A DNA stretch of 39,523 nucleotides, taken from the NCBI GenBank assembly GCA_023254365.1, contig JALRLQ010000005.1, positions 1 through 39,523 of the forward strand, in the 5' to 3' direction. Below, piece by piece: positions 4,910 to 10,659 of this stretch; position 1 is the first letter of the stretch; each line of letters starts with the position of its first letter. This DNA is from Candidatus Poseidonia sp. GTDB taxonomy: Archaea; Thermoplasmatota; Poseidoniia; Poseidoniales; Poseidoniaceae. The translations under genes were made by a program, and so were the position numbers. The notes beneath the pieces were generated by a model. It saw nothing but the letters and a program-made list of their open reading frames with translations. It was not told the DNA's origin and did no database searches.

Positions 4910-6016
4910 TCATTCCTCTTCCACCGTCAACGTGGTTTGCTTGGAAGGGGGAACTTCGAGTTGACCCAAGCGAAAGCCGATCAAGCGCACGTGCTTGTTG
5001 GTATCGATGTTGGTAGCGAACAAATGCTGGGCAACTCGCCTGAACACAGAGGGGTCATCCATCGCCACGGGAATGCTCCTGCTGGCCGTATGGGTCTCAA
5101 ATCCAGTGTAGCGGATTTTGACTTCGGCCAGCCTTCCAGAAACGCCCAATGACGATGCGCGTTCCATCACGGTGTCCACCAAATCCACCAGGCGCTCAAG
5201 CACCAATTCGTGGTCGCTGCGATCACGGTCAAAGGTGTGTTCCTTCCCGATTGATTTCCGGCTTCGCAACGCGCTGATGACATCGCTGCTTTCGCCTTCA
5301 ACCACCGACATGAACCATCCTGCAAAACGGGCACCGGCGAGCCTCGCAAGGGAAAGTTCTCCCAAAGCCTGCAGTTCATCAGCCGTCGTGTACCCCCATT
5401 CTGCCAACTGCGTCGCTCGTTTGGGACCAATGCCGGGAATTTCGCGAAGTGAACGGCCCTCGAAAAACGGTTTGAGTTCATCGGGCATCACCCGAAACAC
5501 CCCATTTGGTTTGTTGACTTCACTGCTCATTTTGGCAACGATGCGGGTCGGGCCGATGCCAAACGAAGCTGTCAGGTTTAGCGATTCAAAAATTTCCTGC
5601 TGGAGGGTTTTCGCAAGCGCAAGGGCCCCGTCCCAGTCACCGTTGACGGCCTCGGTCACATCGAGGTACGCCTCATCGATACTCGCTTGTTCGAACAAGT
5701 TGGCTTTTCGACGCAAACACTTCATCACACGGCGGCTTGCACGGCTGTACAATCCCCGAGTCCCGCGAATGTAGATGGCCGGACCAAAAGGCGCAGCAGG
5801 GCATCGCCTCCATGCCTCGGAAATGGGCATTGCCGAACGGATACCGTAGGTTCTAGCCTCATAGTTGCAGGTGGAAACGATACCCCTGCCTCGTCCCTGC
5901 TTTGGGTCCGAGCCAATGATCAACGGAACGCTGTTGTCAAACCCGTGATGGAGCACTTCAACGGCGGCGAAAAACGCGTCGAGATCGCAATGGATGATGA
6001 TGCGTGAAGCGTTCAC
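4910..6016 (-). CDS. dinB: Y-family DNA polymerase IV (DinB)
   Basis: Translesion polymerase of about 368 residues, the usual size of Dpo4/DinB. The palm carries the first catalytic Asp in HCDLDAFF (D11), with a Phe at the steric-gate position, and SIDEAYLD (D114, E115), so the metal site looks intact. YEARTYGIRSAMP is the nucleotide-contacting finger motif, EIPGIGPKRATQLAEWG is the helix-hairpin-helix of the thumb, and a little-finger domain with IRYTGF follows. The C-terminus reads SKQTTLTVEEE, which has the QxxL half of a PCNA-binding box but no aromatic pair. GTG at 6016 is chosen because AGAGGT lies just upstream; an in-frame GTG at 6043 has no SD. Convergent with valS and divergent (125 bp) from the RecA-like gene, so those two may share a control region. 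Likely partner of the neighbouring RecA-like protein and PolB2-like polymerase by context only. Confidence 0.95.
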   Translation of the reverse strand: MNASRIIIHCDLDAFFAAVEVLHHGFDNSVPLIIGSDPKQGRGRGIVSTCNYEARTYGIRSAMPISEAWRRCPAAPFGPAIYIRGTRGLYSRASRRVMKCLRRKANLFEQASIDEAYLDVTEAVNGDWDGALALAKTLQQEIFESLNLTASFGIGPTRIVAKMSSEVNKPNGVFRVMPDELKPFFEGRSLREIPGIGPKRATQLAEWGYTTADELQALGELSLARLAGARFAGWFMSVVEGESSDVISALRSRKSIGKEHTFDRDRSDHELVLERLVDLVDTVMERASSLGVSGRLAEVKIRYTGFETHTASRSIPVAMDDPSVFRRVAQHLFATNIDTNKHVRLIGFRLGQLEVPPSKQTTLTVEEE

Positions 6017-6141
6017 GCCAACCTCTGCTTCTCCGCCCACCACGGAGGTTTTTCACCGTCAAGGGTGCTTGAACTTGATGCTGAATTCACTTCAAGCAAG
6101 GGGTCTGGAGAACGATAGAAGACCTCCCAGAGCGACCGTCC

Positions 6142-6927
6142 ATGATTGAAATGCATCGACACCTGGAACCAGCCGCTCTGCACCCTGTGCTCACGCCACC
6201 TCGAAACGGCATCGATGTAGGACTGGTTCAGCCACAACGTGGCCAATTGTACCATCTTGCCGGACCTGGTCGTGCTGGAAGCAGCATGCGCCCTGTAGCC
6301 GAGCACTGGATTGCCCGTGCCTTGGCCGAGGGCGAGGTGGTGCACTGGGTCGACGGAGCATGCAGAATCGACCCTTCTCGCTTGATTCCCGCACTCGATG
6401 CACTTGACGCTGATACGGAAGCCTGTCTTTCACGCCTTTACTTGAGTCGTGGATTTACCCTGCATCAACTCGACCGGCAGTTGGAGCGACTCCCCAAAGA
6501 ATTGGCCATCACGCGCTCACCTTTGGTGGTTGTCGATGGACTGTTGGCCATGCATGAAGACGACGCTGTTCGGCGTCTTGAATCACGGGTGTTGCTCCGC
6601 CGTCACATCGGCCTTTTGCAACACATCACTGCCCGATTGCACCTCGCCGTCATCGTCATCACGGAACGCCATGCAACATCCTCGCATCAACAGCGACTGA
6701 TACGCCACGTCCATCGAGCATCACACAACCATTTGTACGGGCACTGGCAAGGGCCACGCCGACGACGCAACCTCCACCTTTTTCACCCAAGAAGCGGGTT
6801 GCAAGGGATTTTTGCACCTCGGTTGGACGCAGCACAGGCGCGTTTTGCCATCCCCACGCCCCTCCTCAACAACCGGAAGAGCGCTCAATTGATTGGTTCG
6901 TTGCCGCTTCATCATGAGGAGACGTGA
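6142..6927 (+). CDS. RecA/RadA-superfamily protein with degenerate Walker A
   Basis: 261 residues. The order of elements matches RadA/RadB-type ATPases: RGQLYHLAGPGRAGSS at the P-loop (residues 33-48), EVVHWVDGACRIDPSRL where RadA has its YIDTEGxFRPERL strand, a FTLHQLDRQLERL helix, the Walker B strand SPLVVVDGLLAM (D132), and LAVIVITERHA where RadA has its VVVTNQ strand. The P-loop has no Lys: GPGRAGSS replaces GPxGxGKT/S, so ATP hydrolysis is doubtful. The C-terminal third is rich in Arg and His (HWQGPRRRRNLHLFHP), suggesting nucleic-acid contact. The first in-frame ATG after the upstream stop is at 6142. Divergent from dinB, and its 3' end overlaps the PolB2-like gene on the other strand by 62 bp. 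No family name can be fixed without a profile search; a RadB-like or ImuA-like accessory role is inference. Confidence 0.72.
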   Translation: MIEMHRHLEPAALHPVLTPPRNGIDVGLVQPQRGQLYHLAGPGRAGSSMRPVAEHWIARALAEGEVVHWVDGACRIDPSRLIPALDALDADTEACLSRLYLSRGFTLHQLDRQLERLPKELAITRSPLVVVDGLLAMHEDDAVRRLESRVLLRRHIGLLQHITARLHLAVIVITERHATSSHQQRLIRHVHRASHNHLYGHWQGPRRRRNLHLFHPRSGLQGIFAPRLDAAQARFAIPTPLLNNRKSAQLIGSLPLHHEET

Positions 6928-9355
6928 ACTCCTCCAGGGTGGGTTGCCGCCCACCCATTCGTATCTGTTCAGTGGTCCAACCAAACGGTGCAAGGATGGC
7001 CCAAATGGCCCGCTCGGCAAGCGCACCGTAATGCGATGCACACCCCCTCATCGACGGAGGAGACGATGCAAGTTCTTCGTTCAGAAGAACACGGTTGAGA
7101 GGTTCAACCGCTGTGCTGTTGACGACAACATAGCGTATTTTCCCACCGGGTGGCACATGATGACCTTGCTCATGGGCCCGCATCAAGGCCCCATAGGTCA
7201 AGTTCTTCACGCGATAGTCACGAAGGGTTGAGGTCACGCGGCGAGTCACGATCAAGTCCTCAAGGGGCACTGTTCGCTGTTCAAGACGTTGCAGTTCGGC
7301 TTTGTAGAGGCGCCAGACCCGGCGTTGTGCATCGCTTCCTGGAAGACCGTTGTGGTCCGTCCCCGAGGCGAGCACCTCAAGCGCGCGTTCTTGCAACGAA
7401 GCGACCCACGGGGGAGTTGAATGCTGACGCATCTCAATACCGCGAACTTTGAACGTCCCGCCCCCGTAGGCCCAATATTTTGTCAACGAACCTGCGCCAT
7501 GGATGCGACTTGGCAGAAAACCGATGAAATCGTAATGCTGTTCCAATTCGAGAGGAATGCCGACCAGCCGAGAAATCCGCTCAGCGAACGAGCGTGCATC
7601 GCGTTGCTGTTCTGCGGGTGAACGGTGCAGACGATCAGCAAGCCAAACGCAGTCAACAATGGCATGCAAGACGTCCCACCCGTCGTTTTGCGCTTCCTCG
7701 ATGGTCGTCAGCAAGATGTCACGGGACCACGCACAAATCGCTTCATGGGCTTCGATGCGACCGAACCTTGCATTGCGATAGCCGGTGTAACCGAAACACG
7801 TGACAAGAAGCCATTTGAGCGCGTTTTGACGAAGGTCAAAGGCGTCTCCCTTGACGACACGTTGTTCCTTCAGCATCCGACGACGTTCAATGATTGGCGC
7901 CACAACCCGTCCGAGGAAACCGTGCGTTCTCCCGCAGGTATGGCTGTTCAAACCCGGCACGCGAAGCGCTTTCTCATTGGCAAGGGGGAACAATCCGTGA
8001 CCAAATTGCGAGCGAAGCCGGCGTTGCCGAAACTCCTGCTCGGCTTCGCGTGGATGAAGTGGAACCGTGCTGACGGAGGAGGTGTTGACCGGTTGACAAC
8101 ACGCACAATTCAGCGTCTCCGGTGAGATGTTTCGGGTGGCGATGATGCTTGGAAAGAGACTTGCAAAATCCAATTCAATCACCGAAGCATACACGCCTGG
8201 ACGGCTGTCAAGATAGAGGCCACCTCGATCAGCGTGAAGCAATTCAAGGGCGGACTTGGTGTCCTCTGGACGGTTCTTTTTCCACGGGACCAAGACACCG
8301 TCATCCATGGCCACTCGCGTCTGAATCGCGCTGATGACCGAGCCCGGTGAGAGGCGCGAAATGACCTGCGCTGACTGGCATGAATGTTGAGCGAGTTCAA
8401 AGAGGCCGGCAACACCTCCTTCGTTCACGATGAAACTGTTTCGAACATCCAGATGCAAGCGGCCTTCAAAGAAGAATGCCCCGTGACGATGGAGCGTGTT
8501 CCCGTACGAGTGAACGGTTCGAGCTTGCGTTGATTGCGACAACACAGAGACAGAGCGACCAAGACGGAAGACACCACCCGATTGTTGGCGTTGATGAACC
8601 AGCCATGGAAAGAGACGCTGGTCGCCTCCGTACGTCAGCACAACATCCGGGTCCAGGCGGCTGTAGATCTCCTGAAACGCGTCGAGCATGGCCTCTTGCG
8701 AGGGATACGCCTCGCGATGAAGCACCGTCTCCACCATCGACATATCGGCTCGCGCAAGGCCGGGTTCCTCAACCGGTTGAAGGCGAATACTGTCCACGGT
8801 ATCATGGAGCGATGGAAGGCCGGATGAGGGGGTGAAATCAATGGCCAATCGAACCACGCGAAACGGAGGGAACTCACCGGTGGTTGCTTCGTCCATTCGG
8901 GCCAGCATCGGTGTCTTCTCAGGCGACCACCGAACACGAGCAAACGGCTCACATCCGTGTTCGTTGAGGAAACGCTGAGCGAAATGGGCATCGACGGAAA
9001 ACAACGTGTAGCGATGGAAGTCGCCGCGCGCTTCAATGTGTTCGGCAAGCGCACGAAGTCGACCAAACGGCTCCACATGAACCTCGAGAACATCCGCCGA
9101 ATCCTCCTGTTCAAGGTCCAGTCGCATGGCTCGGTACTGCGTGGATGAAACGCCAAATCGAACGCTGATTTCGGGTTGCATCAGCCAGTGTTCCAAACGA
9201 TGCAATTCATCGCGAGATGCATGAACGTGGATGCACGGTTGCCAGGGAACTTCGCAGCCGTGTGCCTGACCCTCATCATCGACAATCCACACCACCATGG
9301 TGGATTGATTTGCATGTTCATGAACGTCCAAAATTCGACCTTCAATCATCGTCAT
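6866..9355 (-). CDS. PolB2-like B-family DNA polymerase with degenerate motif C and exonuclease motifs
   Basis: 829 residues with the B-family plan. Motif A is ELDFASLFPSII (D396 kept). Motif B is RQNALKWLLVTCFGYTGY (K514 kept). Motif C, normally YGDTDS, reads AIVDCVWLA (D568 kept, second Asp replaced by V570). The KxY-type motif is TKYWAYGGG, followed by FKVRGIEMR. In the exonuclease domain, DxE reads AIDFTP, the ExoII NxxxFD region reads TYGGDQRLFP, and the ExoIII YxxxD region reads VAGLFE, so proofreading residues look lost. The C-terminus carries RQPTLEEF (Q804, L807, F810), resembling a PCNA-interacting box. Archaeal PolB2 proteins are known as a conserved, apparently inactivated family; assignment to it rests on motif loss and is inference. 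The start overlaps the upstream 89-residue gene by 14 bp, with GAAGGT before ATG at 9355; ATG at 9349 is also possible. Confidence 0.88.
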   Translation of the reverse strand: MTMIEGRILDVHEHANQSTMVVWIVDDEGQAHGCEVPWQPCIHVHASRDELHRLEHWLMQPEISVRFGVSSTQYRAMRLDLEQEDSADVLEVHVEPFGRLRALAEHIEARGDFHRYTLFSVDAHFAQRFLNEHGCEPFARVRWSPEKTPMLARMDEATTGEFPPFRVVRLAIDFTPSSGLPSLHDTVDSIRLQPVEEPGLARADMSMVETVLHREAYPSQEAMLDAFQEIYSRLDPDVVLTYGGDQRLFPWLVHQRQQSGGVFRLGRSVSVLSQSTQARTVHSYGNTLHRHGAFFFEGRLHLDVRNSFIVNEGGVAGLFELAQHSCQSAQVISRLSPGSVISAIQTRVAMDDGVLVPWKKNRPEDTKSALELLHADRGGLYLDSRPGVYASVIELDFASLFPSIIATRNISPETLNCACCQPVNTSSVSTVPLHPREAEQEFRQRRLRSQFGHGLFPLANEKALRVPGLNSHTCGRTHGFLGRVVAPIIERRRMLKEQRVVKGDAFDLRQNALKWLLVTCFGYTGYRNARFGRIEAHEAICAWSRDILLTTIEEAQNDGWDVLHAIVDCVWLADRLHRSPAEQQRDARSFAERISRLVGIPLELEQHYDFIGFLPSRIHGAGSLTKYWAYGGGTFKVRGIEMRQHSTPPWVASLQERALEVLASGTDHNGLPGSDAQRRVWRLYKAELQRLEQRTVPLEDLIVTRRVTSTLRDYRVKNLTYGALMRAHEQGHHVPPGGKIRYVVVNSTAVEPLNRVLLNEELASSPPSMRGCASHYGALAERAIWAILAPFGWTTEQIRMGGRQPTLEEFTSPHDEAATNQSIERSSGC

Positions 9356-9611
9356 GACCTTCTCTCATGCTGCGCAGATGCTGCTCGAGGCGCTCGAGAC
9401 GACCCATGACCCCAACCAGCATGTTGAGCAACATCACTTCACGGGCGTTGGCTGCGGGAAGCATCCCTCCGGCCGCCCGACGCTGTCGCACCTCGTTCAT
9501 CAGGTGGTCAAGGGCATGCTGATCGGTGGTAGCGAGAGCCCTCCGGTACGGAACGAGACGTTCCAATTCATCCTCAACCCGCGTTCGCCATGGAGGTACA
9601 CTTCGACCCAT
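9342..9611 (-). CDS. Small helical protein coupled to the PolB2-like polymerase
   Basis: 89 residues, no recognised domain. It starts MGRSVPPWRTRVEDELERLVPYR and is mostly predicted amphipathic helix; the last third (LLNMLVGVMGRLERLEQHLR) looks like a short coiled coil and the tail is acidic (EGHDDD). Its stop lies inside the polymerase gene: the sequence encoding its last residues supplies the SD and ATG of the polymerase, so the two are very likely translated together. That makes a direct physical or regulatory partnership plausible. I recall haloarchaeal small proteins beginning MGRTNPTYR with a similar layout, but cannot confirm homology here. The gene follows serA on the same strand after 64 bp, so a three-gene transcript is possible. 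Confidence 0.75.
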   Translation of the reverse strand: MGRSVPPWRTRVEDELERLVPYRRALATTDQHALDHLMNEVRQRRAAGGMLPAANAREVMLLNMLVGVMGRLERLEQHLRSMREGHDDD

Positions 9612-9675
9612 AACCGTCGACTTACCGAGCCGACTCAGTTCGTTTGCTCAGACCCAGAACATGAAAGTGAAAGTG

Positions 9676-10659
9676 CTAGAGATGGGAGCGATTCACGACG
9701 AATTCGCACGGTCGACCTGCGAGAATGTCCATCACGTTGGTCACGATGTCGGCACCCACACGAGCCTGAGCCTCAACAGTCGCTGCGCCGATGTGGGGGG
9801 TGCCGTGGAAGTGTTCCATTTGGAGCAAGGGATGATTCGGGTCCACAGGTTCATGCTCGAACACATCCAACGCCGCCGAGGTCAATTGACCCGACTCAAG
9901 GGCCTGCAGCACAGCTGTTTCGTCCACGATGCCGCCTCGTGCACAGTTGACGATGTGGTTTCCACATGGAGCACCGTCTTTCCCGGTCTGCGGCATGGAC
10001 GCAATTCGGGCAGCATTGACAAGGTGGTGGGTCTCGTCGGTAAGGTTGCAGTGAACGGAGATGTGGGTGCAGTTGGAGAACAACGTGTCAACCGATTTGT
10101 GGAGGCGAGTGTCTTGGGCTTTGGCTATTTTTGGTGGGAGGTAAGGGTCGTACGCGTGAACCTCCATCCCGAGTGTTTGTGCCACACGGCCGACGGATTG
10201 AGCAATTCGCCCAAACCCAACCAAACCAAGGGCCTTCCCGGAGAGTTCGGAGCCCTTCATCGCCGATTTTTCCCATCGTCCGTCACGCAGAGAGCGGTCA
10301 GCTCGAGGAAGGTGGCGAATGGATGCAAGCAGATGCCCTAGCGTCAGTTCAACGACCGACTGCGTGCTGGCTCTTGGAGCGTTCACCACGGGAATGCCTT
10401 TGGCGCCCGCGGCGGCCAAATCGATGTTATCAACACCGACGCCTGCACGACCAATGACCTTGAGACGGTCGCCGGAGGCCTCGAGCACTTCGGCGGTTAA
10501 TTTCGTCGCACTGCGAATCACGATACCGTCGAAATCGCTGAGCGCTCCAGCCGTGAGATCCTCGAGAGAAATGCTGGCGAGCACCACTTCGTGACCCGCT
10601 TTTTCCAGCATCGCGACCGCCTTTTTGTCCATGCCGTCCGTGACCGCAATTCTGGCCAT
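9676..10659 (-). CDS. serA: D-3-phosphoglycerate dehydrogenase-like 2-hydroxyacid dehydrogenase (short form)
   Basis: 327 residues of the D-isomer-specific 2-hydroxyacid dehydrogenase family, NAD-dependent and cytosolic. Visible parts: the N-terminal substrate lobe with GRAGVGVDNID, the Rossmann motif GLVGFGRIAQ (residues 145-154), and the catalytic triad Arg241 (NCARGGIVDE), Glu270 (EHEPVD) and His289 (GTPHIGA). GRAGVGVDNID and the NAPRAST loop resemble 3-phosphoglycerate dehydrogenase, the first step of serine synthesis, but the C-terminal ASB and ACT regulatory domains of long SerA are absent, so feedback control by serine through ACT is not expected. A roughly ten-residue insert (QTGKDGAPCGNH) precedes the Arg motif. 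Glyoxylate or hydroxypyruvate reductase is the main alternative. ATG at 10659 is the natural start; serB and serC are not nearby. Confidence 0.85.
   Translation of the reverse strand: MARIAVTDGMDKKAVAMLEKAGHEVVLASISLEDLTAGALSDFDGIVIRSATKLTAEVLEASGDRLKVIGRAGVGVDNIDLAAAGAKGIPVVNAPRASTQSVVELTLGHLLASIRHLPRADRSLRDGRWEKSAMKGSELSGKALGLVGFGRIAQSVGRVAQTLGMEVHAYDPYLPPKIAKAQDTRLHKSVDTLFSNCTHISVHCNLTDETHHLVNAARIASMPQTGKDGAPCGNHIVNCARGGIVDETAVLQALESGQLTSAALDVFEHEPVDPNHPLLQMEHFHGTPHIGAATVEAQARVGADIVTNVMDILAGRPCEFVVNRSHL

Follow-up and report, generated by a model that had tools for sequence, protein, structure and literature searches.

The PolB2 mutasome of Poseidoniales archaea: a tail-to-tail iRadA/polB2 arrangement and a conserved promoter box that suggests an SOS-like damage regulon

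The PolB2 mutasome was described in 2025 as a complex of the B-family polymerase PolB2, the inactive RadA homologue iRadA and a trimer of the small protein PPB2 (PMC11791011). As presented in that report, iRadA has a RadA ATPase fold without the N-terminal domain and has lost ATPase residues, a D(K/R) motif of PolB2 is said to contact the PPB2 arm, and PIP-like motifs are rarely present in PolB2 and iRadA together. Motif C of the Sulfolobus islandicus PolB2 reads IID in the same source. According to the data given for Dpo2, a polymerase with such a motif C shows robust incorporation, lacks 3'-5' exonuclease activity and continues synthesis from mispaired ends beyond lesions (PMC8764526), and in S. 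islandicus Dpo2 is reported to be induced by damage and to account for targeted mutagenesis, with Dpo4 as the housekeeping enzyme (PMC7390963). More distant parallels are bacterial Pol V (UmuD'2C-RecA) and ImuA-ImuB-DnaE2, which also bring together a polymerase, a RecA-family protein and an accessory protein, although the polymerase families differ and the PolB2 complex, as published, is without a Y-family subunit.

With respect to regulation, the sequence TTTCACTTTCA was reported in 2008 as the motif of four UV-B-induced Halobacterium genes (radA1, top6B, vng17 and vng280), where it is located upstream of the TATA box, and according to the same report it also occurs in the promoters of radA genes from other haloarchaea and from Methanospirillum (PMC2556686); the box as such was therefore already known. 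Neither its occurrence across Poseidoniales nor a link to the PolB2 mutasome was found in the open-licence literature. In Sulfolobales, a DNA damage response element with the sequence ANTTTC is bound by Orc1-2 (PMC9738581).

We analyzed a window of 39,523 nucleotides (the whole stretch of DNA under study) from a Poseidoniales archaeon. The four open reading frames described in an initial annotation were confirmed in it at the same coordinates, as was the overlap between the gene of the 89-residue protein and the polymerase start, which measures 14 bp (Table 1). The mutasome-type cluster proposed there, in which a polymerase is accompanied by a degenerate protein of the RecA family and by a small coupled protein, agrees with the published complex, and positions 6142-9611 are, judging from the encoded sequences, the PolB2 mutasome of this archaeon (PolB2, iRadA and PPB2). 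Homologues of the polymerase, the RecA-like protein and the 89-residue protein are, where named, nearly all from Poseidoniales or Thermoplasmatota, one of the polymerase records being labelled Woesearchaeota, and the closest named loci belong to Poseidonia sp., with PolB2 around 70% identical. When synteny was checked, ppb2, polB2 and iRadA were seen to recur together, while dinB accompanies them in some members of the order and not in others. The ppb2 gene is present in 69 of the 71 Poseidoniales loci having both polB2 and iRadA, so that clustering exceeds chance; in the other two (L014, L016) the contigs begin inside polB2. On the same strand and 5' of ppb2, a gene at 9676-10659 is presumably serA-like, and the UV box sits in the short spacer right after its stop codon.

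Table 1. Features of the locus, with positions given in the window.
Feature	Position	Strand	Description
dinB	4910..6043	-	Y-family polymerase, complete; divergent neighbour, outside the mutasome count
iRadA	6142..6927	+	261 aa; Rad51 fold, P-loop Lys absent; strand opposite to polB2
polB2	6866..9355	-	829 aa; assigned as B-family polymerase of the translesion extender type; residues of the exonuclease motifs not conserved
ppb2	9342..9611	-	89 aa; small helical PolB2 partner; R3 and R9 in an N-terminal MGRS arm
iRadA/polB2 overlap	6866..6927		Tail-to-tail overlap of the open reading frames, 62 bp
UV box	9662..9672	-	TTTCACTTTCA; 50-60 bp upstream of the ppb2 start codon; sole exact copy in the window
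Degenerate box	6086..6106	+	TTCACTTCAA with 2 mismatches, and GGGGTCT; located upstream of iRadA in the 98 bp that separate it from dinB
PolB2 motif A	8141..8170	-	DFASLFPSII, residues 396-405; intact (LDFASLFPSII in the window)
PolB2 motif C	7652..7660	-	IVD replacing DxD, residues 566-568, from the alignment; reads HAIVDCVW
PolB2 D(K/R) motif	8225..8230	-	D376-R377, before motif A
PolB2 PIP-like motif	6926..6946	-	QPTLEEF, residues 804-810; PCNA-binding motif predicted from sequence

The polymerase belongs to Pfam DNA_pol_B (E 1.2e-19). Among 79 aligned sequences, the second Asp of motif C is kept in 78 and is X in the remaining one, and the D(K/R) columns contain D in 77 and X in two sequences, followed by R in all 79. 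The locus thus resembles the PolB2 mutasome and Dpo2, as published, in having all three components, an intact motif A, a motif C that has lost its first Asp and the D(K/R) motif, along with the MGR[ST] arm of PPB2, the Rad51 fold of iRadA and a PIP-like motif in PolB2. Since the proteins of the window share these published features, the apparently broken motif C is, as the alignment reads, the state typical of the PolB2 family and no random breakage. The polymerase had been read initially as inactivated, with a broken motif C, but Dpo2 with such a motif is active, and the idea of PolB2 as a dead scaffold is not supported, its motif A/motif C pattern being that of active Dpo2, as described in PMC8764526. 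PIP-like motifs were detected in 18 PolB2 and two iRadA proteins of 34 Poseidoniaceae-type representatives, never in both proteins of a locus. In a second group of 16 representatives, mostly of Thalassarchaeaceae type (L049-L072), they were present in 12 PolB2 and 12 iRadA proteins, and in both for 10 of the 16, a combination that the published description of the mutasome presents as rare.

The RecA fold attributed to 6142-6927 was borne out by three approaches: Pfam Rad51 was matched with E 9.1e-6, the AlphaFold model had a mean pLDDT of 82 (block means of 84-98 across residues 21-220), and Foldseek found 565 matches in the PDB with E <= 0.001, headed by one of RAD51/RadA type (E 9e-12). A profile match to haloarchaeal iRadA was also obtained (90.3%, E 1.5e-6). 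The P-loop of the window protein reads GPGRAGSS and, as noted initially, is devoid of the Lys, in line with the loss of ATPase residues in iRadA as published (PMC11791011). This does not extend to all relatives, however: GxxxxGK[ST] is intact in 16 of the 34 Poseidoniaceae-type representatives and in one of the 16 others, which include two loci with polB2 broken or cut (L048, L066) that may belong to the first group. Because of this variation, iRadA is, from its sequence, likely to be catalytically inactive in the window, and the statement does not apply to the clade. The Walker A motif flickers between intact and degenerate forms among close relatives, which is odd for a protein called catalytically inactive. 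PPB2 starts with MGRSVPPWR, the MGR[ST] start being conserved in Poseidoniales loci, and aligns with haloarchaeal PPB2 over 88 columns (profile match 98.4%, E 4.8e-15). Its structure model is helical, with a mean pLDDT of 75, and its relatives carry PF26485; for PPB2 itself no convincing match was obtained in the Pfam copy searched or in the PDB.

One difference with respect to the published mutasome concerns gene order. In that report the genes are mostly in one orientation, this being usual and not required (PMC11791011), whereas iRadA is located beyond the 3' end of polB2, on the strand opposite to ppb2-polB2, in all 71 of the 71 Poseidoniales loci that contain both (L026 and L064, in which iRadA was not found, are outside this count). 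The initial observation that the genes do not form a single operon, the RecA-like gene being on the opposite strand, therefore holds for the window and for the order, and the tail-to-tail layout across Poseidoniales is new here: the cluster is a known complex with a new gene arrangement in marine archaea. The two open reading frames overlap in 60 of the 71 loci, by up to 214 bp and mostly by 115-145 bp in L049-L073. In three of the 11 loci without overlap the polB2 frame is broken or cut, and in two loci (L019, L045) more than 2 kb separate polB2 and iRadA. The order iRadA-ppb2-polB2 on one strand was seen in all five loci of outgroup Thermoplasmatota that yielded an iRadA gene and in six of 10 haloarchaeal plasmid records, and an inversion of iRadA early in Poseidoniales would be the simplest account of the arrangement.

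Upstream of ppb2, most Poseidoniales loci carry the block CACTTTCACTTTCA...GGGTC. The 10-mer TTCACTTTCA was picked by eye from ppb2 promoters and then tried on other genes. For that purpose, 72 loci, including that of the window, were dereplicated at 90% PolB2 identity to 50, giving 42 usable windows for ppb2 and 46 for iRadA; 120 bp upstream were scanned for ppb2, iRadA and control genes, and positions -180 to -60 for radA. With one mismatch at most, and considering that promoters of related species are not independent, the 10-mer was present before ppb2 in 29/42 cases, before iRadA in 16/46 and before radA in 27/30 (the best-scoring genomes of the 112 with a match), compared to 1/227 control promoters from other genes of the same loci, the latter value speaking against a general promoter element. 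At two mismatches the figures were 40/42, 24/46, 30/30 and 17/227, respectively. Thirty of the 46 iRadA promoters miss the one-mismatch cut; in the near relatives of the window the iRadA box reads TTCAGTTCAA. Forty permuted 10-mers gave mean hit fractions of 0.01-0.03, and the best of them reached 0.48 of the ppb2, 0.13 of the iRadA and 0.60 of the radA promoters. In 20 additional, lower-scoring genomes of our choice, with upstream windows of around 450-690 bp, the radA box was exact in 17, had one mismatch in two and two mismatches in one. It is located near -164, often with an inverted partner.

The number of copies was evaluated in the complete genome G001, where the exact 10-mer occurs 11 times, compared to 5, 11 and 18 in Markov sequences; in four genomes it was found 8-11 times, and the reversed pattern used as control 3-6 times. 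Since its count in G001 is not above the Markov expectation, the 10-mer is not over-represented genome-wide, and the evidence lies in its position and conservation, not in its number. Six of the exact copies in G001 precede ppb2, iRadA, radA and two genes described below (S and X) or lie near a tRNA-Glu gene, and five are inside long open frames; the crude gene caller put the iRadA and X sites inside longer open frames. The copy found around 100 bp before tRNA-Glu(CTC), exact and with an inverted partner, is at C1:1126379 (L108) and has a counterpart in contig C2 of G010 (L093). Among the 25 positional 6-mers listed for G001, the Shine-Dalgarno-like AGGGG and TTCAAG were present and the box was not. 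GGGTC-N5-AA[AG], considered as a specific partner element, was discarded because it is not enriched (110 copies in G001 and 141-156 in Markov sequences).

Whole-genome pattern searches, followed by reading of the downstream genes, led to three further families preceded by the box. S (around 58 aa, 51 of 115 genomes) has it with one mismatch at most in 28/29 promoters, 23 of them exact; X (around 205 aa, 58 of 115 genomes) in 28/30, 25 exact, the two misses corresponding to a gene with a truncated start (L324) and to a run of N (L325); and T (around 100 aa, 38 of 115 genomes) in 30/30, 28 exact. These promoters are from the best 30 loci of the 51, 58 and 38 genomes, respectively (one S locus, L401, was not located), and the counts include the genomes in which the box first drew attention to these families (G001 for X and S, G004 for S, and G006, G007 and G009 for T); without them the values are 27/29 for X, 26/27 for S and 27/27 for T. 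None of the three families matched Pfam at E <= 0.1, and X gave no convincing PDB match. In G001, S follows a gene that we take to be rfcS. Genes for TopoVIB and a CinA-domain protein were boxed in a single genome, G006.

There is a resemblance to the Halobacterium UV-B box as described in PMC2556686: the 11-mer before ppb2 in the window is identical, and its 10-mer core precedes radA in Poseidoniales and, in one genome, TopoVIB. The differences are that a distinct archaeal class or phylum is involved and that the box is here linked, from promoters, to the PolB2 mutasome and to S, X and T. Outside the order, TGCACTTTCA, with one mismatch, is located 60-64 bp before the PPB2 match in two of seven outgroup Thermoplasmatota loci, which is no more than suggestive. 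Among 10 haloarchaeal plasmid polB2 loci, taken from 109 matching records, one has an exact box before iRadA, TTCACTTTCA being located 66 bp before the iRadA-ppb2-polB2 operon of a Halobaculum roseum plasmid (L411:2851-2860); with one in 10, these plasmids were not taken as independent support. As to Sulfolobales, TTCACTTTCA contains ACTTTC, a match to ANTTTC that is weak because the element is short and degenerate. Orc1-2, for which this gave a lead, received no support as regulator: none of 13 Orc1/Cdc6 promoters from eight Poseidoniales genomes had the box, and an orc1-2 gene carrying the element itself, as in Sulfolobales, was not found among them. There is a further likeness in the damage-inducible expression of polB2, which was measured in Sulfolobus and would be expected in Poseidoniales.

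The gene identities, their arrangement and the conservation of the box were observed in this work, and they suggest an order-wide, SOS-like damage regulon containing the PolB2 mutasome. Damage induction is inferred from Halobacterium and Sulfolobus, and the activity of PolB2, the architecture of the complex (AlphaFold models) and the UV induction of boxed genes come from publications on relatives. Upon damage, a putative regulator, presumably a single one, would act at the box and switch ppb2-polB2 through the copy before ppb2. As the box is also present before radA, many iRadA genes and several further genes, mutasome and recombinase would be co-induced: RadA would rise for recombination and the mutasome for lesion extension. 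PolB2 would be an active extender polymerase without proofreading, iRadA may dock on it as one RadA subunit does on another, and the PPB2 trimer would insert one MGRS arm in the PolB2-iRadA cleft, both partners stabilizing PolB2. The C-terminal PIP-like motif might tether the complex to PCNA. After insertion of a nucleotide opposite the lesion, the complex would extend the distorted primer end, survival being bought with mutations. By inversion, iRadA would have left an ancestral iRadA-ppb2-polB2 operon, with a related promoter box in many lineages. We consider this whole explanation, an active extender in a mutasome co-induced with radA through the box, to be probable.

A different distribution of roles had been proposed initially, in which synthesis falls to DinB, while scaffolding or loading is left to an inactivated PolB2 and the degenerate RecA-like protein. 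DinB is indeed catalytically complete, as had been stated (Pfam IMS, E 3.8e-38; motifs HCDLDAFFAAVE and SIDEAYLDV intact), and it adjoins iRadA divergently, separated by a short spacer, both in the window and in 28 of the 59 loci whose sequence extends 1.5 kb or more beyond iRadA; the 12 loci with a shorter flank are outside this count. However, the published complex, as described, consists of PolB2, iRadA and three PPB2, and DinB is not among its members (PMC11791011); dinB was found in 58 of 115 Poseidoniales genomes, and none of 30 dinB promoters (12 beside iRadA and 18 alone) had TTCACTTTCA with one mismatch at most. On distribution and promoters, membership of DinB in the complex was rejected. 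In PolB2, both motif A and the second Asp of motif C are conserved, and the Sulfolobus enzyme with such a motif C is active according to PMC8764526, so that synthesis by DinB with PolB2 as scaffold is unsupported and, in our estimation, scarcely credible. The related parallel drawn with ImuA-ImuB-DnaE2 holds for the classes of polymerase, RecA-family and accessory protein, but is looser than the comparison of PolB2 with Pol V made in PMC11791011; membership in that system was rejected because the Y-family protein is catalytically complete, not ImuB-like, and the second polymerase is of family B and not a C-family DnaE2. At its C-terminus, DinB of relatives has a short tail resembling a clamp-binding motif, with RQTTLF-EEE or a similar sequence. 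The tail-to-tail overlap could also be read as an antisense damping device allowing the complex to form only when both promoters are strongly induced, given that the opposite orientation is universal in the loci with both genes and the overlap frequent and at times long. Against it, overlap length and frame vary between clades, the genes are well apart in L019 and L045, and 67 of 286 convergent pairs overlap in G001 with a crude gene call, so that genome compaction may suffice; since such overlaps are not rare there, we gave the overlap no weight and regard the device as quite improbable.

Two other readings accept the mutasome and concern the meaning of the box. The regulon could respond to growth or replication phase, covering a recombinase, a polymerase and a gene behind a clamp-loader gene, instead of damage. 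It is known that radA is also a growth-phase gene, and the position of S behind the presumed rfcS in G001 would fit, but the identical motif is common to the four UV-B-induced Halobacterium genes, as reported in PMC2556686, and polB2 is described as damage-inducible in Sulfolobus (PMC7390963), which makes this reading unlikely. Otherwise, a dedicated TFB or TBP might recognize the box as part of an alternative core promoter, in which case it would not be the operator of a damage regulator. Its nearly fixed distance to the start codon before T (around -48), ppb2 (around -60 to -66) and X (around -73) agrees with this possibility, which we nevertheless find rather improbable in view of the location of the Halobacterium motif upstream of the TATA box (PMC2556686, as described there) and of the more distant position of the radA box, with its frequent inverted partner.

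The interest of the locus rests on the regulon and not on the model centered on DinB. A broader proposal, which we put forward tentatively and hold to be slightly on the doubtful side, is that of an ancient, LexA-free SOS-like system of Euryarchaea, shared by Halobacteria and Poseidoniales, in which TTTCACTTTCA and one putative regulator would govern radA, the PolB2 mutasome and lineage-specific small proteins, and which would have kept the mutasome co-controlled after the inversion of iRadA. Across the entire order, presumed partners of one complex would have had their operon divided by an inversion, and in many lineages both parts would have retained a related promoter box. If true, S in Poseidoniaceae and T in Thalassarchaeaceae could act like the checkpoint proteins of the bacterial SOS response. 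The box offers a handle on what switches on damage genes in archaea outside Sulfolobales, and damage-induced mutagenesis in these uncultured marine archaea becomes a testable prediction.
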